From Simmondsia chinensis (taxonomy: Eukaryota > Streptophyta > Magnoliopsida > Caryophyllales > Simmondsiaceae), in the NCBI GenBank assembly GCA_018398585.1, contig JAGTTD010000015.1:7259001-7323000 (forward strand): a DNA stretch of 64,000 nucleotides. The letters run 5' to 3'. The position numbers were made by a program, and so were the translations under genes. The notes beneath the pieces were generated by a model. The model did no database searches, was not told where the DNA came from, and worked only from the letters and a program-made list of their open reading frames with translations. Positions 7,080-57,326 of this stretch are shown here, piece after piece. Numbering within the stretch: the stretch's first letter is position 1; each line of letters starts with the position of its first letter.

Positions 7080-7426
7080 TGTAAAAATTAAGAACACAAA
7101 AATAGGAATGGAAAATGTTACTTTTATTTTCTATATTATATAAACATTACAACTACTAACTATTTATACTAAAGAAATCCTAACTAAGATGAACCAAACC
7201 CTTCTACTACCATTACATGAGTTACACAAAAAAATAAAAGCCATTCAATTGGAATTGAAGTGGCCGGTTATGGAGAAAGGAAGAGAAAGGGATTAATGCA
7301 CCTACCACCATCACTAATGCTACACTACTAATTACAATACTAAGTACTAGCCTATTAATTGTAAATACAAGAATATGCTTATAATCTTTACAAATAAAAA
7401 GTATAATACAAGAATAGTATTCAACA
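7080..7426 (-). repeat. 5' LTR of the copia element at 2216-7426
   Basis: On the minus strand it starts TGTTGAATAC and ends TTTTTACA, next to the primer-binding site. It matches the LTR at 2216-2562 apart from about 11 substitutions and has the same length. Confidence 0.95.
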
Positions 7427-9858: not shown

Positions 9859-9874
9859 ATAAACTAGAAGGAGT

Positions 9875-10047
9875 ACAACAACAACAACAGACCCAGTGCC
9901 TCCAAGGGCTCCCGCAAAAGTAGGGTTTGGGGAGGGTAGGTGTACGCAGCCTTCCCCCTTCAGGGGGCTACCCTAAAGAGAGGCTGTTTCCGAGGACCCC
10001 CAGCCTAAAAAGATAGTCTACACCAATCAGCCAAAGACAAAGTGAAG
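9875..10047 (-). mobile_element. 5'-truncated RTE-LINE tail (or Au-like SINE tail)
   Basis: On the minus strand this carries the same 3' module as the RTE LINE at 20476-21162: GAGGACCCCC-type start, CAGCCTCTC, CTGCGTACA, a CCCCAAACCC stretch, GCACTGGG and a terminal (TTG)n seen here as ACAACAACAACAACAG. Possible 9-bp TSD AGAAGGAKT at 9866-9874 and 10048-10056. No 5S or tRNA-like head is visible, so a truncated LINE tail fits best. Confidence 0.65.
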
Positions 10048-10123
10048 AGAAGGATTAATAGTGTAAATACTATAATAAATTTAGTTATCACTTTGTTTTT
10101 CCTTTTCTCTAGATTCTCTCTTT

Positions 10124-10424: not shown

Positions 10425-11381
10425 AGTTAAGGTTTTTGGTGAGTTAGCTTCAGTTAAACTTTATACCAGCCGCGAAAAGCAAAATGAATGAATTAAGGAC
10501 ACGAGATCTTGAAACGGGCGCAAGAATCAGTGAAGAACACCAAGGTTTATTGAGGTTCAAGCCCTAAAATTGGTCCTATGTCCTCCATTCCCTAATGTTA
10601 GAGAAATCTCCCATATTAAAGATGGTTATTACAAGTTATTGACTTATTACAACAAAGAACTGAACAAAAACAACTCAGGACTCAAGGTACAGACTCAATC
10701 TTGGCTTCTGAGACAGAAACCTAGAACATAAGCCTTAAATCTTGAAATGTCTTCTCACTAGTAGCAGCGATACTCCATGGATCTTGGTTCATGAGCTTGG
10801 AACTCCATGAAAATGGCCCAGAGAAGCTTTTTAGGTTGGGGTTTCGAAGAGAAGAGCAAGAAAGAGAAAACCAGGTGAGAGAATTAGGGGGAAAGCGAAG
10901 CTTTAAAATGAACTGCATCCGAAACCCTAATTTTCACCGGTTTATATATCTCCTACCTTAATCCGTGCTCTGCCCTTATGCTGTCGTCACATCCATTGAT
11001 TAATCTTCATCCAATGGCCAATATTGGCCAAAAGAAACACAAATTGCACAACCCAAGAAGCACCGCTTAAGGATAGATCAATAAAAGAGGTGCACACACG
11101 CGTCAGTCAAATAATGGAAAGATAGTACGGCGGGGCAACGGATAGCTTGGCAGGTAAATAATACACTTCGGTCAGGGCACTTTGGACAATACCCAAATGG
11201 GGACATTTCAAATTCCAGCTAATCAAAGTGCTCCGTTTCGAGTTGAATATTAAAACCAGACGATTCGTTTTACCATGTAATAATCACCTAATTATAGCTA
11301 ATCTCATTTTAGCTCATTTTACCTAATATTATCATCATTAGGCATGGTTTAGGCCATACACTAACCAATTAGGATACAACA
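10425..11381 (-). repeat. 3' LTR of the copia element at 10425-16630
   Basis: About 957 bp; the minus strand begins TGTTGTATCC after a purine-rich AAGGCAGAGAT. GAGAG lies outside. Confidence 0.9.
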
Positions 11382-12026
11382 ATCTCTGCCTTGGTATTTA
11401 AATGGACTAGCCACTAGATCCTCTCTAACAATATGGAGTATTTTCGTAAATCATTCAACCCCGAGTTCCAATCCATTTGGACTAGCTTAATAAAGTGTAT
11501 AAATGTTTCCGAAGGAAGGGACTTCATACCCATGTCTGCGAGGTTGTCCTCAGTATTAATTTTGAGCAATTCAGCTTGGTTTGCATCTAACTGGTCCATG
11601 ATAAAATACCTTCTATCAGCAAGGTGTTTTGTCATATCATGAAAAAGTATATTTCTATATAAAGCATTAGCTAATTGACTATTAGAGTATATTCTAGGTG
11701 GCCCTAATCGAGCTTGATTTCAGATAGCAAATCATTAATCCGTATTCTTTCTTTAACAGCATCAGAAATAGTCAAAAACTTAGATTCAATGGTTGAAAGT
11801 GAAGTTAACGATTATAACTTTGACCTCTAACTAATTGCTCCACCTGCTAAAGTAAAATATAAGCTGAGGTTGATTTCCTTCTATCTAAATCACCAACAAA
11901 ATCAACATTTATATGTCCCACCATTTTAAGAACCCCTTGGTCTCTTACAAAGGTTAAACCTAAATCTATGGTTCCTTTAATATACCTAAGCAACCATTTC
12001 ACACCATCCTAGTGTACTTTACCAAG

Positions 12027-12234
12027 CAATATTCCCAGAACCCCAAGGGCTCCCGTCTAAGTAAGGTCTGGGGAGGGTGGATGTATGCAGTCTTCCCCCT
12101 TCAGGGTCCGAAGGGAGGCTGTTTCCTAGAAACCCCAACTTGAGGGGTGCAACACGAGGACTTCTCAGGTGGTCAGCCATCTTGGTACTACTCTCCCCAA
12201 GCACGCTTAACTTCGTAGTTCTAATGGGATCCGT
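12027..12234 (-). mobile_element. 5S rRNA-headed SINE (SINE3-like) with RTE-type tail, copy 1
   Basis: A 208-bp insertion bounded by the 17-bp TSD TAGTGTACYTTACCAAG (12010-12026 and 12235-12251, one mismatch). Read on the minus strand, the first ~92 nt are 5S rRNA from about nucleotide 28 to its 3' end. The remainder matches the 3' end of the RTE LINE at 20476-21162 and finishes GGGAATATTG. The TSD and the uninterrupted copia frame on either side show one insertion event of a composite unit. The 5S part would supply an internal pol III promoter and the tail would be recognised by the LINE reverse transcriptase; this role is inferred from known SINE3 biology. Confidence 0.88.
12143..12234 (-). 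ncRNA. 5S rRNA-derived head of the SINE
   Basis: The minus strand follows plant 5S rRNA from CGGATCCCAT through GAAGTTAAGCGTGCTTGGG (box A region, intact) to the box C region GATGGCTGACCACCTG (two changes) and AAGTCCTCGTGTTGCA. I count about eight mismatches over ~91 nt. The first ~27 nt of 5S are absent, so it is not a working 5S gene. Confidence 0.9.
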
Positions 12235-13355
12235 TAGTGTACCTTACCAAGATTGGACATAAATCTTGACAGTACACTCATAGGAAAAGCTAAATCTGGT
12301 CTAGTACAAGCCATAGCATATATTAATGTTCCTATAACATTAGCAGAAAGTATACTAGACATTTTAAGCTTTTCTTGATCTGTTTATTCGCAATGTTTTG
12401 CTGAAAATTGATATTGAGATGCCATGGGCAGTTTTACAAACTTTGAATCATACATGTTAAACCTTTTTAACACTAATTAGATAATGGCTTTGACTTAAAT
12501 GAACAGTTTTAAGTGATATGTATCTTATGATAACCATATCCAATATTCTCTTAACATTACCCAAATCTTTCATATCAAATGAACTGTTCGACCTCTTTTA
12601 TAAATCTAGAATATGATCTTCGGACCTGCTAGCTAAGAGCATGTCATCAACATACATCAGTAGGAAAATAGCATTATCACAACTAACATTCTTAAAGTAA
12701 AAACAAGTATTATGCACAGATCTCACAAAACCGTTATCACTCATAAAGGCATCAAAGCTTTTGTACCACTGACGTGGTGATTATTTTAACCCATATAATG
12801 ATTTTTTTTAGTAGACATACCAAATTAGATTTATTTGGTTCAATGAAACCTTCAAGTTGAGCATGAGGATCTCCTCCTTAAGCTCACCATGTAAAAAAGA
12901 AGTAGCAACATCCATTTAATTAAGAAACATATCAAATTTAGCAGTCAAAAAAATAAACAAACAAATAGTAGTGTGTTTAACAATAGGGCTGAAAATTTCA
13001 GCGTAATCAACACCCTTTTTTTGGGTGAAACCTTTGGCTACTAACCTAACTTTAAACCTAGGTTTTCCTTCGGGGGTTTCAGATTCCTTAACCTTAAACA
13101 CCCACTTAGAACCACTAGTTCCTTACCCTTTGGCCTAGGTACAGGTACCCAAGTCTGATTCTTTCTCAAGCTTTCCACTTCTACATTAATGGCGTTCAGC
13201 CATTCTGTTGAATGCCTGCTGTTAATAGCTTAATTATAAGACATAGGCTCAGATTCTACATATTCTAAAGTAGTATTTAGAGCATAAGCAATACAGTAAG
13301 CAAAACCATACCTATAAAGAGCACTAATCTCTCTTCTTACTTTATCCCTAGCATG

Positions 13356-14573
13356 TTAACAATCATCTAGATTCTGTTCCGCACCAATGGGTTCAGTTTT
13401 AGGTCTGATCTGGACTAGTTGAGGTCTGTTTTCATCTGGGTTATTGTCATTTTCTTCTAAATTATCCTCTAAATTAGTCCTAAGGTTGATTGGGTTAGGT
13501 GGGTTCCCTTCAAACTCATAATAGTCAGGATCAAAGGTCCTAAAAGCAACTGGACTATTACCTATTTGTTCTTTTAGGTAAGACATCTCATCCTCATTAA
13601 AGGTGAGATCCCTAATAATAATGGTTATAGTCCCTTTTTTTCCCCTTTATACCTAACACATAACCTTTTGCCCCTGAAGGATAACAAAAGAAAATGCCTT
13701 TAATAGCCCTAGGTTCCAATTTCCCTACACTTTGGTGTGTGAAAGTAGAACAACCAAACACGCTTAGGTTATTGAAGCTAACTGATTTTCAATCCAACCA
13801 TTTACAGGTGCATTCATTTTTAAAGCAAAATTAGGGGATTTATTAATCAAATAAGCAACGGTATTTACAGCCTCTCCCCAAAACTGTTTTGGAAAACTAG
13901 ATGAAAAAAGCATACATCTCACTCTATTTAAAAGTGTTTTGTTCATCCTCTCAGCAGCACTATAATGTTGAGGGGTTTTTCTAACAATATTGTGTCTTTT
14001 AATATCATATTCGTTACATAAATCATCAAATTCTCTACTTATAAACTCTAGGCAATTGTCTGATCTAAGAACTTTGATTTTCCTATTTGTTTGGTTCTCA
14101 GTTGAAGTTTTCTACTTAACAAAGGTTTCAAATGCACCATCTTTATTTTTCAGCAAATAAACCTATACTTTCCGTGAGAAATCATCCATAATAGATAAGA
14201 AATAGCATGATCCACCCATTGTGGGTACCCTAGAAGGTCTCCACTGATCAAAATGTACATTATCTACAATGCCTTCAGTTATATGTATTCTAGTAGAGAA
14301 TGGAAGCCTATGATGCTTAGCATATATGTAATGATCACAAAAGTTAAGTTTGGACACAGAACTAGACTCAAACACACCCTGTTTATGTAATTACAACAGA
14401 CCCCTCTCTGATATGTGACCCAACCTTCTATGCCAAAGGTTAGTGGTGTCCTTAAGATCTTTCTTGGCAACATTACCTTCCCTAGAAATAACCTCTTACT
14501 TCAAGAAATACGAACCATTCTTGACTACCCTTTAAGCACTACTAAAGCTCCTCTCAGGATCTTCATTTCTCCC
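13356..14573 (-). pseudogene. copia integrase remnants
   Basis: Fragments include FCDHYIYAKHHRLPF, VDNVHFDQWRPSRVPTMGG and FLSIMDDFSRKV (14163-14375), then NKTLLNRVRCMLFSSSFPKQ with FWGEAVNTVAYLINKSPN (13764-13946). The acidic linker before RT is at 13356-13586. The core Asp of the first motif is retained, but the reading frame is broken several times. Confidence 0.85.
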
Positions 14574-15600
14574 TTACACCTTAAGGATAAAACTAGCTAA
14601 GTCAAGTTTTCCTAGATATATAAGTTTTCTTTTAAATTCTGGGACATGCCTCACACCCTTTAAGACAAAGTTAGTACTATCAATTAGTCTAACCCTAACT
14701 GACCCAACCCCCACTACCCTATAGGTATCACCTAATGTCACTTTTCCCCCATTCACACATTCATAATCAGTAAAATACGATTATTACTGGTCATATGAAA
14801 ACTACTCCCAAAGTCAAGAACCCATTCATGTGTTGTTATAGCAGAAGAAGAAACAAGCACTTCACTAGAGTCATAATCATAAAAAATAACATTATTAGGG
14901 CAGTAACATTTAATGCGTCCCATTTTACCACATTCGAAGCACTTAGTATTAGAAAAATCCTTCTTACCTCTAGACTGTGACCTATTCTTGCTTTTACTGC
15001 GTTTCTTTTTCTGGTTATCCCTAGTTTTAGTTCTTCATTTAGCTCTTAAACCCTCACCATTGCTGTTATTATTGTTATGGCTGCTAATAGTGTACTTACC
15101 CTCTTTTTTTAACTCTACAATCTGGGACCTGAGAGCATCCTCAACTTTTTTTAGGGATATAGTTTTTCTTCCATATCTTTGGTTATTTTAAAGTGACTTT
15201 AGGAACATAGGAAATGACCCTAACAATATTAGAGCCTCTACCTTATTTGGTATTTCAACTTTTAAGATTGTTAAGTTACCTAAAACCCTATGGAATTCAT
15301 CAATATTATCCTCAAGAAGTCTGTTCTCATCCATTTTAAACGTGTAGAATATTTCCATGTAAAGTACCCTATTAGCTAGTGATTTAGAAGCATATAGTTC
15401 TTCTAACTTATTCCAAATAGAAAAAGCATTTTTTTCACCCGAAACTTTAGAGAGAACAAAATTAGTTAAGGTATAGAAGGATATTACCATGCGCCACTGC
15501 CTCAATGTTAGACTCGTCTTTGTTAGCAAGATTAGCAGGCTTGTCTTTCTCTGACCTTCATCTTTTAAAGCTCAAAATCGTTCCTACTATTGAACTTCTC
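14574..15600 (-). pseudogene. copia gag and protease remnants
   Basis: A gag fragment at 15188-15529 contains FSIWNKLEELYASKSLANRV and an FHRVLGNLTIL stretch, matching the element at 52209 position by position. Further in, a fragment at 14574-14756 (KVTLGDTYRVVGVGSVRVRL, LKGVRHVPEFKRKLIYLGKL) is the region after the protease active site. Stops and shifts separate the pieces. Confidence 0.85.
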
Positions 15601-15650
15601 TATGTCGTGTTTAGCTGAGGCCATCTCACTAAGCCTAGTGTTAAACCGCG

Positions 15651-15662
15651 GCTCTGATACCA
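15651..15662 (-). promoter_or_regulatory. Primer-binding site, initiator tRNA-Met
   Basis: The minus strand reads TGGTATCAGAGC, a perfect match to the common plant retrotransposon site, two bases from the LTR end. Confidence 0.88.
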
Positions 15663-15664
15663 CT

Positions 15665-16630
15665 TGTTAACATTTTTAGTGAGTTAGCTTCAAATAAACT
15701 TTGTACAAGTCGCAAAAAGTAAAATGAACGAATCACAGACATTAGATCACGAAAATAACGCAAGAATCAACAAAGAACACCAAGATTTATCAAGGTTTAG
15801 ACCCTAAAATTGGTCCTACGTCCTCCACTCCCTAATCTTAGAGAGATCTCCATTACTAATGATGATCATTACAAGTTATTGACATAATACAATAAAAAAT
15901 CGAACAAAAACAACTCAAGACTCAAGATACAGACTCAATCTTGGTTTCTAAGACAGAAACCTAGCACATAAGCGCTAAATCTTGAAACGTCTTCTCACCA
16001 ATAGCAGCAATACTCCATGGATCTTGGCTCACGAGCTTGGAACCTCCATGAAAATGGCTCAGAGAAGCTTTATAGGGACAGGGTTTCATAGAGAAGAGCA
16101 AGATAGAGAAAACCAAGTGAGAGAATTAGGGGGAAAATGAAGCTCCAAAATGAACTGCCTCCAAAGCCCTAATTTTCACTTGTTTATATATCCGCTACCA
16201 CAATCCCTGTGCTGCCTTCATGCTGTCATCACAGCCGTTGATTATTCTTCATCCAATAGCCCATATTGGCCAAAAGAAACACAAATTGCATAGCCCAAGA
16301 AGCACCGCTTAAGGACAGATCAACGGAGGAGAGGCAGACGCACATCACTAGAATAATGGAAAGATAGTACAGCAGGACATTGGGCAGCATGGTAAGGCAG
16401 GTAAATAGTACACTTTGGTTAGGGGCACTTTGGAAAATACCCAAATGTGCACATTTCAAATTCCAGCTAATCAAAGTGTTGTGTTTCGAGTTGAATATTA
16501 AAACCAAACGATGCATTTTACCATGTAATAATTACCTAACTGTAGCTAATCTCATTTTTAGCTCAGTTTACCTAATATTATCATCATTAGGCATGGTTTA
16601 GGCCATATATATACCAATTAGGATACAATA
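15665..16630 (-). repeat. 5' LTR of the copia element at 10425-16630
   Basis: About 966 bp; on the minus strand it ends GTTAACA, two bases before the primer-binding site. The outer end reads TATTGTATCC (TG start changed to TA). It is similar throughout to 10425-11381, with many substitutions. Confidence 0.9.
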
Positions 16631-19371: not shown

Positions 19372-19500
19372 AAAAAGCAATAACAAATCCAGTGTCTCAA
19401 ATTCTCCCATTGAGGCAACGTCTAGGGAGGGTGAGATAATACGCAACCTTACTCCTAACCCTATAGGGAGGCTGTTTTTGAAGGCCCGTAACCCTAAATA
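19372..19500 (-). repeat. Degenerate RTE/Au-type tail fragment
   Basis: It carries the common tail module: CCAGTGTCTCAA, GTCTAGGGAGGGTGAGA, ACGCAACCTTA, GGGAGGCTGTTTTTGAAGG. No 5S head follows. The boundaries are approximate. Confidence 0.55.
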
Positions 19501-20820: not shown

Positions 20821-21162
20821 AGGAGCGAGAAGCACTTCTAAGCTAGTACTAATTACCCGAGGTTGGGTGTTCATGTTTTTCATGCTTTTCACGCTTTTCA
20901 TGATTTTCGTAGTTTTCGTGTTTTTCATGCTTTTCATGCTTGGCTATTCATGCTTCTCATGATGCTTGGGTGATCATGCTTTTCATGCTTTTCGTGCATT
21001 TTGTGCTTTTCATGATTTGCAACTTTCTCAGGTTGGGGGTCCTCAAAAATAGCCTCTCGTCAAGGTATCACCCTGAAGGGGTAAGGCTGCGTACATCATA
21101 CCCTTCCCAGACCCTGCTTAGGCGGGATCCGTTGGGGCACTGAGTATATTGTTGTTGTTATT
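20476..21162 (+). mobile_element. 5'-truncated RTE-clade LINE
   Basis: A 687-bp insertion in the gypsy LTR, flanked by a 20-bp TSD (20456-20475 and 21163-21182, one mismatch). It holds the C-terminal end of the reverse transcriptase ORF, a 3' UTR with (TTTTCATGC)-like repeats at about 20871-21020, the conserved tail module, and a (TTG)n end. The long TSD and 5' truncation are the marks of target-primed reverse transcription. Confidence 0.9.
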
Positions 21163-27195: not shown

Positions 27196-27345
27196 GGTAA
27201 TTCTCGGCGCATAATTATTAGCGTTTATACAAACATCGAGAAATCCCGGCGTTTAAATGCGTCGAGACAAAGCGTCGAAAATTCTCGGCGATTTTAAACG
27301 ACGCAAAAATTCTCGGCGCTTATAAGCGCCGAGAATCTCGTCGGG
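27196..27345. repeat. Left subterminal repeat array of the CACTA element
   Basis: Repeats of TTCTCGGCG and its inverse occur about every 20-40 bp. One pair forms a perfect 28-bp palindrome at 27309-27336. In En/Spm such arrays bind the TnpA protein. Confidence 0.85.
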
Positions 27346-28222: not shown

Positions 28223-31200
28223 ATGGATATGAGTTGTATCATGCAACCAAGGATTAGTCAAGCTTATATTGATGGTGTCATTGAATTCATTAAGTTGGCT
28301 AAAGAAAACCTTATAGAAGGAAAAACTCGATGTCCATGTAATAAATGCAAAGTAGCCAAATGGTTCTCATTAGAAGATGTGGAATATCATATCCTTTTTA
28401 AGGGTTTTTGGCCAAAGTATAAGAAATGGATTTTTCATGGAAAAGAAGATATTGTTCAACAATTGAGATGCAATAGGCAAACATCTACCAATTATAATGA
28501 GGGAAGGGCCATAGGTCGAGATGATATTGGTGGATTACTACGAGAAAGTATCGGAGTTGATATTCCTCCCTCCACAAGTCAACCCCATTTGTCTGATGAA
28601 CATGATTGGTCGGACCAAGTTCCTCTTGAAGAACCCAACCAATCTCCTGAGGAGAAAGCCAAGTATAAGAAGATATTGGAAGCTTCTAATGAAGAACTAT
28701 ATTCAGGCTGTAGCGCATTCTCCAAATTGTCATTTCTTTTGCACTTGTTTCACTTGAAATGTATGCATAGTTGGTCTGCTGAGTCCTTCACGATGTTGCT
28801 AAGACTTCTTGTTGATGCGTTTCCCCAAATTATGGTATTTCCATCATCTTATTATGAAGCTCAGAAAATGATCAATGAGTTGGGTCTTGGATATGAAAAG
28901 ATTCATGCTTGTCCAAATAATTGTATGTTGTATTAGGGTGAAATGTCTGAAAAAGAGAGTTGTCATACATGCGGTACCTCAAGATGGAAGACAGTTAAGG
29001 GTAAGGAAGATGACAGTTGTAGTGATGAAACTATGTCAACCAAGAAAGGAGAGCCCGCTAAGGTTATGCGGTATTTTTCTTTGATTTCAAGGCTCAAAAG
29101 ATTATACATGTCATCTAAAATAGCCGAAGATATGAGACGGTATGAGATAGACCGTTTGAAGGTTGGGAAATTAAGGCATCCTGCAGATGGCTTAGCTTGG
29201 AGGGCATTTGATGCTCGGTATCCAGAGTTTTCTTCAAATCCTCGTAGTGTTAGGCTTGGTCTTGCTAGTGACGGCTTCAATCCGTACCGTCTTATGAATA
29301 CTACTTATAGTACATGGCCAGTAGTGTTGATCCCGTACTACTTGCCCCCATGGCTATGTATGAAGCAATCGTCATTCATTCTTTCTTCGATTAGTCCTGG
29401 GAAATCGGGCCCTGGACTTGACATTGATGTGTACCTACAACCATTGCTGCATGAGTTGAAATTGTTCTGGGAAGGTATTGATGCATATGATGCCTATAGT
29501 GGACAAAACTTTAGGATACAAGGGGCTATAATGTGGACTATCAATGACTTTCCTGCATATGCTATGTTGTCTGGTTGGAGTACAAAGGGCTACACAGCTT
29601 GTCCTTATTGCACTGAACATACACATTCTTATAAGTTTGGGGGCAGGATTTGCTATAATGGACACCGTAAATGGTTACCTAATAATCACCCTTTTCGATC
29701 TCAGAGTCAATTGTTTGATGGGACAATGGAGTATGCTTGTGCTCCTACTCCGGCATTAGGGACTGATATTTTGAAAGCACAAGAACAAGTTCGTTACAAG
29801 TACGAAAAAACCCAAAGAAGAAAAGAGAAAGGCACCACATAGACAGTTCAATAGAAAGAGTGGACAATGACGAAGTGCTTTGGAAGAAAAAAAGCATATT
29901 TTTTGACTTGCCATATTGGGAGTACAATCTCCTTCGACATAATCTAGATGTCATGCACATAGAGAAAAATGTGTGTGATAATGTTCTAGGGACGCTATTA
30001 CATATGGAGAGAAAGACTAGAGATGATGAAAAGGCAATAAGGGCCCTTGAAAAATGGAACATAAAGCCACATCTTTGGCTACAACCTCGTCCTAATAGAG
30101 ATCCGTACAGGCCTCCAGCTTCTTACTATATGTCTTCAAATGATAAAGAACAGTTTCTAAGAGTTCTACAGAAACTTAGGGTCCCAGATGGATATAGATC
30201 TAACATCTATAGATGTGTGAAGTTGAAATAAAGAAAACTCTTAAACCTTAAGAGTCATGACAACCATGTTCTTATGCAAGATATTCTTCCTGTAGCTTTA
30301 CGAGCATCCAATGCCACACAAGTCATTGAGTTGCTTTCAGACTTGTCTTCCTTTTTCAAATACTTGTGTTCTACGACCCTCGACCCAAATATGCTCGATC
30401 TTCAACAATCGAACATTATTCTTACACTTTGTGAGATAGAGATGGAATTTCTACCTACATTTTTCACAGTCATGGTTCATCTACTAATTCATTTAGTAGA
30501 GGAGGCTAAGCTTGGTGGGCCTGTTCACTATAGATGGATGTATCCGATTGAAAGGTTAGCCGATAATGCTTCATTTACTTTTATCTCTCATATTTGGCAT
30601 CCAGTAATTGATCTCACGTGTTATTTATATTTATGTAATAAAGGTATTTGTCCCATTTGAAAGCATACGTAACCAGGCGCGGCCAGAAGGGTCCATTGCT
30701 GAAGGCTACATCATGGAGGAGACTATTACATTTTGTTCTAGATACTTAGAAGGTGCTACGACCATTTTTAATAGACCTAAAAGAAATGATGATAATGGCT
30801 CAAGTATGGGTAAATACTTGTTAAACTCTGGGGGTCGTGCAATTGGAAAAGAGAAAATTGTTCACCTTGATATGAGAAGTAAGGAACAAGCGCATCGTTA
30901 TGTGCTACTTCAGCTAGATGAAATCAAGGAACTTCGTGAGTAAGTGTTAATAGAAGCAACTTTGTCAATATTAACTATTTTTGTTCAACCTACTAATAAT
31001 TTCCTTATTATAGTGAATTTTTAAGTGAAAAACGACGGGCATATTTTCATAGAGGTCGATCTAATGCAACATTAGAAAATCAGTGGATTGTTGAAGAGTT
31101 TTCTGAGTGGCTTCAAAACCAGGTTAATATATTTTATTCGATGTTGAAGTTAATATTATATATTCACCATTAATTTTGATACTACCTTTTATTCTATTAA

Positions 31201-39562: not shown

Positions 39563-40243
39563 TGTTGAAAATATAATCATAATATTTTATATTTTCATGT
39601 ATTTTCTCATATTTTCTTTTAATTGTAAAAGCAACATACTCAGTACCTCAAGGGCTCCCACTTAACGAGAGTCTGGGGGGGGCGGATGTACGCAGCCTTC
39701 CCCATTCAGGGTATTACCCCTGAAGAGAGGCTGCTTCGGAGTGTCTCTAACCTAAAGGTGAGGACTTCCCAGGAGGTCACCCATCTTAGTACTGCTCTCA
39801 CCCAAACAGGCCTAACTTCAAAATTCTAATTTTTTTAATTGTACACTTAGTATTTTAGTTATTACATTTGACTAAGTCAATGGGTGTAATTAGTAGACGA
39901 GAGGAGGATTTTTGCTTTGCTTTTGTTTTCTTTGACTCTAGAAATTAATTTAGCTTGGGATTTCTTTTGTTAGTGTTCTAGGTTAGTCTTTTGGGTTTCT
40001 CTTCTATTTGTAGCCTGAGAATTGAAGGGGAGAGGGGGAGTTTTGCTTTGCTTTTATTTTCTTTGACTCTAGAAATTAATTTAGCTTAGGATTCCTTTTG
40101 TTAGTGTTCTAGGTTAGTCTTTTGAGTTTCTCTTGTATTTGTATAAATTGAGAAGATTACTATTGAATACATCATCCAATTTTCCCAATTATCTTAACTG
40201 TTCTTCAATTGTTTTGCTTATTTAGAGTTATCATATTTTTACA
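39563..40243 (+). repeat. 5' LTR with SINE insertion and internal duplication
   Basis: It starts TGTTGAAAATAT and ends TTTTTACA. A SINE (39628-39832) and a roughly 130-bp tandem duplication (about 39908-40143; both units contain TTTGACTCTAGAAATTAATT) explain its 681 bp against 312 bp in the other LTR. Confidence 0.9.
39628..39832 (-). mobile_element. 5S rRNA-headed SINE with RTE-type tail, copy 2
   Basis: A 205-bp insertion between two copies of TTTTAATTGTA (39617-39627 and 39833-39843). On the minus strand the head (39832 down to about 39757) follows 5S rRNA, with GAAGTTAGGCCTGTTTGGG and a perfect box C region ATGGGTGACCTCCTGGGAA. The tail follows with CAGCCTCTCTTCAGGGGTAA, CTGCGTACATC and an end GAGTATGTTGC. 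The layout matches copy 1 at 12027-12234. The sister LTR at 44724 has the site without the insert. Confidence 0.88.
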
Positions 40244-42300: not shown

Positions 42301-44700
42301 GGTGCATAATTTCTCTTTGGGCCATTAGTTGATTTTTATGCAGGAAAAATGCATACAAGTACAGAATTCATGTAATGACACACCTCAACAAAATGGGGTT
42401 GTGGAAAGGAAGCATCATCACCTTCTTGAAGTTGCTCGAGCCATTCGATTTGAAGCTGGCCTCCCTATCCAGTTTTGGGGAGAATGTGTGTTGACAGCAG
42501 CATACTGGATTAATCTCATGCCTACACCTCGATACAAAACAAGAGTCCTTACAAAGTGTTACTCGGTAAAACCCCTTCATACAAACATTTACGTGTTTTT
42601 GGATCTTTATGTTATGTTATGTTCATAGTAAAGGTCGTAGTAGGGATAAATTTGGTGGCCGGGCAAGTCATTGTGTTTTCATTGGTTACCCTCATGGAAA
42701 GAAGGGGTAGAAGGTTTATGATTTAGATAACAAGAAGTTCTTTATCTCTCGTCATGTGATTTTTCATGAAAGTATATTTCCATACCTTGAAGGGAGGGAG
42801 CAAAGTAATTTTTGTAATGATGTTTTTGATTTAATACGCCATGTTGAGGATGGGGATGTTTTACAAGCTCGCGTGGCAAATTTGCCACAAAACGCCGCGG
42901 CACCGTGATGCTGTTCGGTCAGAACAATGACCAAACACTGTTCGGTCAGGGCAGTGAAGGAGAGAGATAGGGTCATACTAGGTCCGGGAGGCCGAGTCAT
43001 GTTCGTTCCATGCCTGCTAAGTATCAAGATTATGTGGTTGATGTTCCCTCTTCTATAGCTCATCCTCGTGATACCCCTTCGTCAGCTGACTCAGGTACGG
43101 TCTATGCTATGTCAAGTTACGTGTCTAATGCACGGTTTACTAACTTTCACTCGGATTTGCATCAAGCCATTACACCTAGTGATGAGCTGCGAAACTTTGC
43201 TCAGGCTGTAGGATCACAGCATTGGAGAGGAGCAATGAAGAAACAAATCTCAGCGTTGGAACAAAACAAGACATAGACACTAGAAGAATTACCACCGGGA
43301 AAGCGTGCTATTGAATCCAAATGGGTCTACAAGATCAAGTACAATTCAGATGGTACTATGGAATGGTACAAGGCAAGACTAGTTGCCAAACGCTATACTC
43401 AGGTTGAAGGTATAGATTATCATGATACCTTTGCTCCCATTGCTAAACTAGTGACAGCTCGTTGTATACTTGCAGTTGCGGCTGCCAGAAATTGGATAAT
43501 ACATCAGTTGGATGTAAATAACGCTTTTCTCCATAGAGATTTAGATAGGAGGTTTATATGAAATTGCCTCAAAGTTTTGAAAGAAAACATGTTGGTAAGG
43601 TCTGTTGTCTTTGTAAATCGCTTTGTGGACTTAAACAGGCCTCTCGTAACTGGAATCAAAAATTTACGCATTTTCTCATTTAGATGGGTTTTTCACAATC
43701 TAAGTCGGATTATTCATTGTTCACCTATAAAAGAGGGGCAGTGTACACTGCGGTTTTAGTATATGTTGATGACGTTGTTATCACCAGAAACAACTTAGAA
43801 CATATTCAGGAGGTGATATCTGGACTAAATGTCAGGTTTGGCATTAAAAATTTAGGCCCCCTTAAGTATTTCCTAGGATAGAAGTGCTTGTTTTCAAAAT
43901 GGATTGGCTTTAAAACAACGAAAATATGCTCTTGACATTCTAAGTGAAACCAGTCTCCTAGGAGCTAAATTAGTTTCTACACCCATTATTCAAAACCATC
44001 ATTTAAGAGATGAAGTCGGCGACCCGGTTGAGGACCAGGGTCAATACAGATGGCTCGTAGGAAGGCTACTTTACCTTACCATTACTTGTCCTGACATTCG
44101 CTACACAATTCGTATTCTCAATCAATTCATGCATAATCCACGGGTACCATATTTAGGAGCAGCTTTTCGTGTCCTTCGGTATATCAAACGGACACTGGAT
44201 CAAGGAATTGTTCTTCCACATAACTCTGATTTTAACCTTCTTGTCTATTGTGATGTTGACTGGGCAGTTTGTCCTACTAGTAGATGATCCACGATAGGGT
44301 TCTTCTTATTTTTTAGAGAAGCTCCAATCTCCTTGGCGTTCCAAGAAACAAGCAATCGTTTCTCCTTCCTTTGCAGAAGCGAAATATCATTCCATGGCTA
44401 CTGTTGCTAGCAAGCTAGTTTGGTTAAGACGATTGCAAGCTGATCTCGCTGTCGATGCGAAGAAACCAGCTATTTTATTTTGTGATAATCAAGCTGTTCT
44501 TCACATAGCCTCGAACCCGATCTTTCATGAGCGAACAAAGCATATAAAGATTGATTGCCATTTTGTCGGGAGAAATTGTTAGCTAAGGAGATATTGACCT
44601 CATTTTTGCGCTCCTCGTGACAAGTGGCCGATATTTTCACCAAAGCTCTCGCTTTACCATCATTTTCTTCTCTTCATAGCAAGTTGGGCAATGTAAATTT
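42301..44700 (+). pseudogene. copia integrase-RT-RNase H remnants
   Basis: Pieces in order: [20 protein letters not shown] (integrase Glu), GLPIQFWGECVLTAAYWINL, the RT start [65 protein letters not shown] (43758-43799, catalytic motif kept), LKQRKYALDILSE, YCDVDWAVCPTSR and FCDNQAVLHIASNPIFHE. Stops and shifts break the frame at least six times. Confidence 0.88.
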
Positions 44701-44723
44701 ACATGCTCCAACTTGAGGGGGAA

Positions 44724-45035
44724 TGTTGAAAATATGATCCTAATATTTTGTATTTTAATGTATTTTCTTGCATTTTTTTTAATTATACATTTAGTATTTT
44801 AGTTATTGCATTTGACTAAGTTAATGGGTGTAATTAGTAGCCTCCCCCTTCCTTGTAACTGTGAGAATTAATTTGGCTTAGGATTCCTTTGGCTAGTGTT
44901 CTAGGTTAGTCTTTTAGGTTTCTCTTATATTTGTATAAATTGAGAAGATTACTAGTGAATACACCATCCAATTTTCCCAATTATCTTAAGTGTTCTTCAA
45001 TTGTTGTGCTTATTTAGAGTTATCATACTTTTACA
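44724..45035 (+). repeat. 3' LTR, preserving the empty SINE site
   Basis: 312 bp. TTTTTTTTAATTATACATTT corresponds to the uninterrupted SINE target. Confidence 0.92.
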
Positions 45036-51171: not shown

Positions 51172-51176
51172 GAAAC

Positions 51177-52166
51177 TGTTGTAAAATTGGTCCCTATATG
51201 ACTTAACTAGGTCAAGAAAATTTAAGTCAAGAAGTGTTCAAATATTATAGATCAAATATTGTAATTTTTTTTTTTTAGTGGCACAAGTTGTATTTTTTTT
51301 AGGTAGAAAATATTATAGCAGCAGGTTATTAAATTTAGTTAAAAGTCATGTGGTAAAATGACACTGCTGCCCCTGCCCGTGTGCTCATTTTACCTGCCCG
51401 TGCCACTGCCCGCTGCCCGAAGCTTCTCAAGGAAGCTACCCAGAATCTGTTGTTGATGGTTGACACGCGTCAGCCATCCGGGACTACTATTTGTGTTTCT
51501 TGTGGGCTTTTATGGACCGTTGATCTGGATCGTACGAACGGCCGAGATTGAACCTGGAGCCTTGCCACGGATCGGGTATCTGTTGCCTATATATATGGAC
51601 CCTTTTTTAGGGTTTCCTGTACGAATTGCATTTCTCTTTGTTTTCATCACGCCACCGCCTATTCTCTCTTTTTCTCTGGCGATTTGAGGCGATCTTGAGA
51701 CGATTGAGGAAATCCGTGGGTGCTAAGGCTTGCTTGTTCAAATCTTAGTAGTTTGGAGCACGTATGAAGCCTTGTTGGCTTCGGTTGTGAGCTTTCTCTT
51801 CCCTTACTCTTTATTTCGTTCGTCTTTATGTTTCTGTCTTAGAAGCCTTAAGGATCTATTTGTATAAAGTTGTATATCGTTGAATTTTGGTCTGTAATAC
51901 TTGAACTCGACTTATAGTGGATAGACTTCCCTAGAAATAGGGAGCCGTGGAGTAGGTCCTTATTTAAAGACTGAACCACGTAAAAATCTTGTTGCTGTCG
52001 CTGTGTTTTTTGTGCATGTGTTTGGTGTTGGATGAATCTTGCTAAACTACAGTTACAGGTTTCTTGAACAAAATCTAAAGTGTTGAATGTTTGTTGTTAT
52101 TGTCAGTTTTTTCAAGATCTAAAGTTAATAAATTTAAACCCTAGGAATACGACCTAAAACTTAACA
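51177..52166 (+). repeat. 5' LTR of the copia element at 51177-57326
   Basis: TGTTGTAAAATT...ACTTAACA. TATATATA at about 51589 and the sequences after it suit a promoter. CCTGCCCGTG-type short repeats lie near 51370-51420. Confidence 0.95.
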
Positions 52167-56262: not shown

Positions 56263-56337
56263 CGAACCCAATGTGTTTTGCTCCTATTACTAGGGAATGT
56301 CCAGTAGTTAACCCATATAGGTACCAATGTGGAGAAT

Positions 56338-57326
56338 TGTTGTAAAATTGGTCCCTATATGACTTAACTATGTCAAGAAAATTTAAGTCAAGAAGTGTTC
56401 AAATATTATAGATCAAATGTTGTAATTTTTTTTTTAGTGGCACAAGTTGTATTTTTTTTTAGGTAGAAAATATTATAGCAGCAAGTTATTAAATTCAGTT
56501 AAAAGTCATGTGGTAAAATGACACTGCTGCCCCTGCCCGTGTGCTCATTTTACCTGCCCGTGCCACTGCCCGCTGCCCGAAGCTTCTCAAGGAAGCTACC
56601 CAGAATCTGTTGTTGATGGCTGACACGCGTCAGCCATCCGGGACTACTATTTGTGTTTCTTGTGGGTTTTTATGGACCGTTGATCTGGATCGTACGAACG
56701 GCCGAGATTGAACCTGGAGCCTTGCCACGGATCGGGTATCTGTTGCCTATATATATGGACCCTTTTTTAGGGTTTCCCGTACGAATTGCATTTCTCTCTG
56801 TTTTCATCACGCCACCGCCTATTTGCTCTTTTTCTCTGGCGATTTGAGGCGATCTTGAGACGATTAAGGAAATCCGTGGGTGTTAAGGCTTGCTCGTTCA
56901 AATCTTGGTAGTTTGGAGCACGTATGAAGCCTTGTTGGCTTCGGTTGTGAGCTTTCTCTTCCCTTACTCTTTATTTCGTTCGTCTTTAGGTTTCTGTCTT
57001 AGAAGCCTTAAGGATCTGTTTGTATAAAGTTATACATCGTTGAATTTTGGTCTGTAATACTTGAACTCGACTTATAGTGGATAGACTTCCCTAGAAATAG
57101 GGAGCCATGGAGTAGGTCCTTATTTAAAGGCTGAACCACGTAAAAATCTTGTTGTTGTCGCTGTGTTTTTTGTGCATGTGTTCGGTGTTGGATGAATCTT
57201 GCTAACCTATAGTTACAGGTTTCTTGAACAAGATCTGAAGTGTTGAATGTTTGTTGTTATTGTCGGTTTTTTCAAGATCTAAAGTTAATAAGTTTAAACC
57301 CTAGGAATACGACCTAAAACTTAACA
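56338..57326 (+). repeat. 3' LTR of the copia element at 51177-57326
   Basis: 989 bp, almost identical to the 5' LTR. It is preceded by the purine-rich AATGTGGAGAA. Confidence 0.95.

Follow-up and report, generated by a model that had tools for sequence, protein, structure and literature searches.

The locus described here raises the question of how a piece of 5S rRNA running directly into a LINE-type tail came to lie in a plant genome, and whether it belongs to a SINE family with a 5S head, given that plant SINEs are held in a review to derive from tRNAs (PMC9033089). A sequence-only reading of the window, by which we mean the whole 64-kb stretch of DNA analysed, had proposed that the piece is part of a retroposon, possibly of an undescribed plant SINE family. 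The retroposed composite stands, as does its position outside Cassandra elements; the family, with two copies in 64 kb, is not proven, and the evidence on either side of it is weighed below.

The first copy is an insert at 12027-12234 on the minus strand, in which 5S rRNA nucleotides 29-120 run without a spacer into a tail of 116 bp (Table 1). When compared by blastn with a plant 5S gene taken as the reference, the head was 90% identical with one gap (83 of 92 positions, E 1.2e-30), and it stops at nt 120, the mature 3' end of the reference gene. The Rfam 5S_rRNA model matches 12144-12260 on the same strand at 42.2 bits, which exceeds the gathering score of 38, and the first 26 bases of this match (12235-12260) are flanking DNA and not 5S. 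The insert is enclosed by target site duplications (TSDs) of 17 bp that agree at 16 positions; when 2991 random pairs of 40-bp stretches, 150-300 bp apart, were drawn from the window, one pair equalled this score. Rfam, blastn and the comparison of the TSDs therefore confirm the minus-strand composite as first described, including its 17-bp TSD with one mismatch, and the earlier estimate of the 5S part (nt 28 to the 3' end, about 91%) holds in substance, with nt 29-120 and 90% as the measured values. We take box A to lie within nt 47-66 and box C to span nt 80-97. The former stretch is unchanged relative to the reference gene, in keeping with the claim of an intact box A region, and the next base, nt 67, is missing; two changes had been claimed for box C, and the count within its presumed span is three (81, 87 and 93). 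Because of the missing base and eight changes in the head (39, 46, 79, 81, 87, 93, 98 and 116), copy 1 itself is probably not active. A search for TTTT, the Pol III stop, within copy 1 found none.

The surroundings of this copy are those of a decayed Ty1-copia element with LTRs at 10426-11379 and 15666-16628 (84.8% identical). To reconstruct the empty site, the insert and one TSD were removed and the flanks joined, and the joined flanks aligned as one piece to the copia element at 51.2-57.3 kb (66% over 1329 columns), with a tblastx match of 131 residues (60%) spanning the join. The ORF at the join has RVT_2 in its first part, and the join itself falls downstream of RVT_2. Since the joined flanks align across the join to a second copia element, copy 1 interrupts copia coding sequence rather than forming part of an LTR.

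A second copy, to which the sequence-only reading had given no position, lies at 39628-39832 on the minus strand and consists of 5S nt 37-107 and a tail as in copy 1. Its Rfam 5S score of 33.5 bits is below gathering, and the two copies give a single local alignment running through head and tail (72%, E 1e-27). The TSD is a perfect 11 bp, the score of which was equalled by 8 of the 2991 random pairs. This copy contains one TTTT, in the head. As in SINE3 elements, the head of both copies takes in the internal promoter region of 5S, which is altered in each of them. The host is an LTR-type element, recognised as such by its likeness to the copia element at 2.2-7.4 kb, with two related LTR-like repeats, one of which holds copy 2. 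The partner repeat continues uninterrupted through the corresponding site with neither insert nor 5S; this is the strongest single result of the analysis, and it places the ends of copy 2 with an accuracy of a few bases. The occupied repeat also seems internally part-duplicated (39830-40243), and this duplication is absent from the partner at 44.8-45.0 kb. The pattern of retroposition, TSDs together with insertion into an empty site, is present in both copies, each in a different host. There is thus good support for a retroposed composite of 5S and tail that lies outside Cassandra LTRs, because there are two insertions with different TSDs and different hosts, one facing an empty partner repeat and the other at a copia-internal site.

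Table 1. Positions in the window of the two 5S-headed copies, their hosts and TSDs, and the tail-bearing inserts that have no 5S head.
Feature	Positions	Strand	Basis
Decayed Ty1-copia element, with copy 1 inserted in the coding region shortly downstream of RT	10426..16628	-	LTR pair, flank alignment, domain search
Copy 1, TSD at the 3' end of the element, TAGTGTACTTTACCAAG on the + strand	12010..12026		TSD search and flank joining
Copy 1, tail of 116 bp, with four homologues elsewhere in the window	12027..12142	-	Tail alignments
Copy 1, head, 5S rRNA nt 29-120, 83/92 identical	12143..12233	-	Rfam, blastn
Copy 1, TSD at the 5' end of the element, one mismatch, TAGTGTACCTTACCAAG on the + strand	12235..12251		TSD search and flank joining
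Copy 2, TSD, 3' side, TACAATTAAAA on the - strand	39617..39627		TSD search and flank joining
Copy 2, tail, a few bases after TTG	39628..39753	-	Tail alignments
Copy 2, head, 5S rRNA nt 37-107, 61/71 identical	39760..39830	-	Rfam, blastn
Copy 2, TSD, 5' side	39833..39843		TSD search and flank joining
Empty site of copy 2 in the partner repeat of the host LTR-type element, without insert	44691..44840	-	Repeat alignment
t3, tail-bearing insert (tail 9885-10006), head of about 45 nt of other sequence, ends (TTG)n; TSD 9/10, weak	9876..10047	-	Tail profile, TSD search
t4, tail-only insert (tail 21030-21151), ends (TTG)n; TSD 7/7, weak	21020..21161	+	Tail profile, TSD search
t5, tail-only insert, most diverged; TSD 11/14, weak	19381..19494	-	Tail profile, TSD search

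The tail is also found apart from 5S rRNA. A profile built from four tails recovered a fifth, giving five such tails in the window, and a 5S head was sought at the three further inserts (t3, t4 and t5) and found at none of them. The short or imperfect TSDs of these three could be due to chance, and a search by eye for an empty site of t4 at a related repeat near 25.1 kb showed none. For t3, Rfam was run on 9870-10070 at E <= 10 and gave six matches, none of which is a tRNA; ARAGORN, run in bacterial mode on the whole window, found no tRNAs, which is weak evidence where heads are degraded. In copies 1 and 2 the head is 5S, and not tRNA-derived like the heads of the TS SINE and other plant SINEs of that kind. 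When the five tails were folded together, 3 of 30 pairs in the consensus were changed on both sides, but five sequences are too few to rely on. SINEs of the Angio-domain superfamily have a conserved 3' Angio-domain of 37 bp, which the tail may resemble. Compared by description, the tails of t3 and t4, which are about 100 bp long and end in TTG repeats, are like those of Angio-domain SINEs (PMC9033089) and of the plant TS SINE, the partner LINE of which belongs to the RTE clade (PMC3747384). The tail may accordingly be called RTE-type, a name that is taken from literature descriptions of RTE LINE ends: TTG repeats close t3 and t4, all seven flowering-plant RTE LINE families of one published table end in (TTG)n or (TTGATG)n, and the TS SINE of tobacco has a 3' end of about 100 bases in common with an RTE LINE of potato (PMC3747384). 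A signature reported for plant RTE-clade insertions (Tn-TA) consists of a TSD beginning with T and then A, and a T stretch about 10 nt upstream (PMC13295347). Two of the five TSDs start with TA (copy 2 and t3), those of copy 1, t4 and t5 starting otherwise, and an upstream T stretch, sought by eye at copies 1 and 2 and t3, is present at copy 1 and t3 and not at copy 2.

On balance, we favour the explanation that these are retroposons with a 5S head that were inserted through target-primed reverse transcription of the LINE type, most likely members of one old, low-activity SINE3-like family. In the scheme that we infer, such a family would have arisen by a template switch between 5S rRNA and a LINE tail. 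Pol III would transcribe the element through its 5S head, and the reverse transcriptase of an RTE-type LINE would bind the transcript at its tail and prime on nicked target DNA, giving rise to the TSDs, with 5' truncation removing the first nucleotides of the head to leave truncated copies. The lack of TTTT in copy 1 speaks for this scheme, and the TTTT in the head of copy 2 against it. Citing Kapitonov and Jurka, the authors of PMC3272025 note that type 1 promoters rely on upstream signals and that 5S copies made by retroposition are presumably weak or silent, which fits an old family of low activity. The more specific proposal of a plant SINE3 lineage, an angiosperm SINE family in which a 5S head, joined to an RTE-type tail, takes the place of the tRNA head that is usual, we regard as evenly balanced.

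The alternative that survives best, which we consider unlikely and still a serious contender, is that the copies are independent chimeric retropseudogenes: a reverse transcriptase would finish the tail of an RTE-type LINE or SINE and jump to the 3' end of 5S rRNA, separately for each copy and with no reproducing family. That the 5S part of copy 1 extends exactly to the mature 3' end is what such a jump would produce. The heads start at 5S nt 29 (copy 1) and nt 37 (copy 2), so that the first 28 or 36 nt are absent and neither copy is complete; this 5' truncation, too, would suit chimeras. The tails point in the same direction, in that those of copies 1 and 2 are identical at 87 of 115 positions (75.7%), compared with 90-93 of 115-121 (76-80%) between either of them and t3 or t4, and 69/109 and 75/112 (63-67%) against t5. 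Because each tail is at least as close to t3 and t4, which have no 5S, the two appear to form no shared subfamily. The two copies have the same order of head and tail and nearly the same breakpoint, and differ by an 8-nt gap at the very end of the 5S part, adjoining the junction. This gap may reflect either a deletion or a different join, the latter as chimeras would have it. The sequence-only reading had named copies that never share the 5S-tail junction as the finding that would speak against a family; in the two copies compared, the junction is shared apart from this gap. If their weak TSDs are right, t4 and t5 begin near the same position in the tail, and the breakpoint may then be a place where the enzyme stops or jumps, again as expected of chimeras.

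Divergence was also compared. With tail divergence measured against the agreement of the other four tails, copy 1 differs at 8/91 positions in the head and 14/98 in the tail, and copy 2 at 10/71 and 15/103, so that in either copy the head has diverged about as much as the tail, which speaks for a family. Two same-base substitutions are common to both heads, which is not significant (P 0.078, by simulation with two thirds transitions assumed). A diverged source for copy 2, with more 5S divergence than the host repeat allows, was considered and rejected once CG and CHG sites were set aside. At the remaining sites copy 2 differs from 5S at 4/57, compared with 18/234 pairwise between the host repeats, a figure drawn from two of three aligned pieces, the third (183 bp, 76%) overlapping the internal duplication and being left out. 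Outside methylation contexts the divergence of the heads lies within that of the host elements' repeats and is compatible with insertion straight from 5S, which would again suit chimeras. Against them stands, if such events were rare, the improbability of two in 64 kb: with random placement in an assumed 1-Gb genome, and copy 1 taken as given since the window was chosen for it, the probability of a second copy in the same 64 kb by chance is about 0.0006 for 10 copies or events in the genome, 0.006 for 100 and 0.06 for 1000. The nearly identical tail breakpoint of the two copies is also more simply explained as inherited. Weighing these points, we hold a single family to be likelier than independent chimeras.

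A further possibility, that separate insertions placed a 5S pseudogene next to a fragment of a SINE or LINE with such a tail, can appeal to the tails without 5S in the window and is very improbable, given that the same head-tail order and a near-identical junction occur in two places, and that one TSD pair encloses the whole unit each time, at sites known in their empty form. Least probable of all is that the 5S piece belongs to the LTR of Cassandra or another TRIM. In its favour, 5S-derived sequence is known in plant retroelements from Cassandra LTRs (PMC10853983), and copy 2 does sit in an LTR-like repeat. Against it, the partner of that repeat holds no 5S or insert and therefore excludes Cassandra for copy 2, copy 1 lies within copia coding sequence, the TSDs of 11-17 bp compare with 5 bp reported for plant Helenus TRIMs (PMC10886601), and both copies end in a tail common to inserts without 5S. 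The empty sites thus refute a Cassandra or TRIM origin for both copies, in agreement with the earlier statement that an LTR setting of this kind is absent. The other finding that the sequence-only reading had named as a refutation, a unit lying inside Cassandra LTRs, was thus looked for and is not the case here.

The preferred reading, a SINE3-like family, has counterparts outside plants. HaSE3 of Helicoverpa has a 5S head with the box A/IE/C region and a 3' end shared with an RTE LINE; this 3' end is also common to the SINE HaSE1, and an origin by template switching has been proposed (PMC3272025). It differs in being an insect element that shares its body with HaSE1 and is known from 16 named H. 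armigera elements (HaSE3.1-3.16) and a consensus (PMC3272025), whereas the window holds two decayed copies with no body between head and tail. Ped-1 of the springhare likewise joins a 5S promoter to an RTE-clade tail, but is mammalian and has a BovB tail (PMC3747384). Vertebrate SINE3 elements and DeuSINEs have a 5S-derived Pol III head and a LINE-derived tail, which is of CR1 or RSg-1 type in contrast to the RTE-type tail seen in this plant (PMC3747384), and 5S-related SINEs have been reported in Aspergillus (PMC5063351). Among plant elements, the TS SINE differs in its tRNA head, and the Cassandra TRIM is alike in its 5S-derived promoter (PMC10853983) and unlike in being an LTR element, the window copies lying outside Cassandra LTRs and having a LINE-type tail. 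A 2010 paper places 5S sequences among SINE3 elements including plants, citing the Cassandra paper for that (PMC3095306), and the pipeline of AnnoSINE, a plant tool, has a 5S class, with no plant case among the results reported in the accessible text (PMC8825457). The 2024 Cassandra paper gives animal SINEs as an example of gaining new genic promoters and cites Seibt 2020 (plant SINEs) for reshuffling of promoter regions, its accessible text mentioning no 5S-headed plant SINE (PMC10853983). Among the matches listed in our search of titles and abstract openings in the open-licence literature, the 5S-headed SINEs are from animals and a fungus and none is from a plant. As far as that literature was searched, the present composite is therefore the first SINE3-like one in a plant.

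If a 5S-headed plant SINE is real, it would extend SINE3 to plants and offer a concrete candidate for the origin of the 5S in Cassandra LTRs, for which insertion of a SINE3 into the LTR is reported as speculation (PMC10886601). A plant SINE3 lineage, if true, would also mean that plant SINEs, like those of animals, have captured a type 1 Pol III promoter. For annotation, there is a warning that Rfam 5S matches in plant genomes can be retroposons.

Sequence collections were searched for relatives of the composite. The 5S-tail junction pattern and the tail patterns each gave 0 matches in viral contigs, and the junction pattern gave 3 in bacterial and archaeal contigs, none of them real homology (best E 0.60); these collections are uninformative on plants. 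The reading frame of copy 1 gave no candidate among predicted proteins. That of the fused 5S-plus-tail consensus gave 39 candidates, 12 of them at E <= 0.01, and inspection of these 12 by eye for a tail match found none, the 5S reading frame alone being matched; three were also aligned (P0005, P0008 and P0009), and the 90% coverage of P0009 comes from a second 5S stretch. These matches neither support nor refute a family.

The window as a whole is rich in transposable elements of flowering-plant type, with copia gag and RT, tnp2 transposase and DUF4283 domains. The named relatives of one copia gag ORF are from plants; none is close over the full ORF, the best-scoring being 43% identical over 99% (Trema), and a few shorter local matches reach 57-60% over about a quarter. 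A young-looking copia element has LTRs at 51174-52166 and 56335-57326 that are 96.8% identical, and the best match of its gag ORF is 43% identical. Another copia element, related to the host of copy 2, has short LTRs of 347 bp at 2216-2562 and 7080-7426, also 96.8% identical. A CACTA-type tnp2 transposase ORF lies at 28943-29842 (Transposase_21, E 3e-84), and a weak match to the MIR6297 hairpin at 27242-27336 (29.2 bits, gathering 114) is perhaps a MITE.
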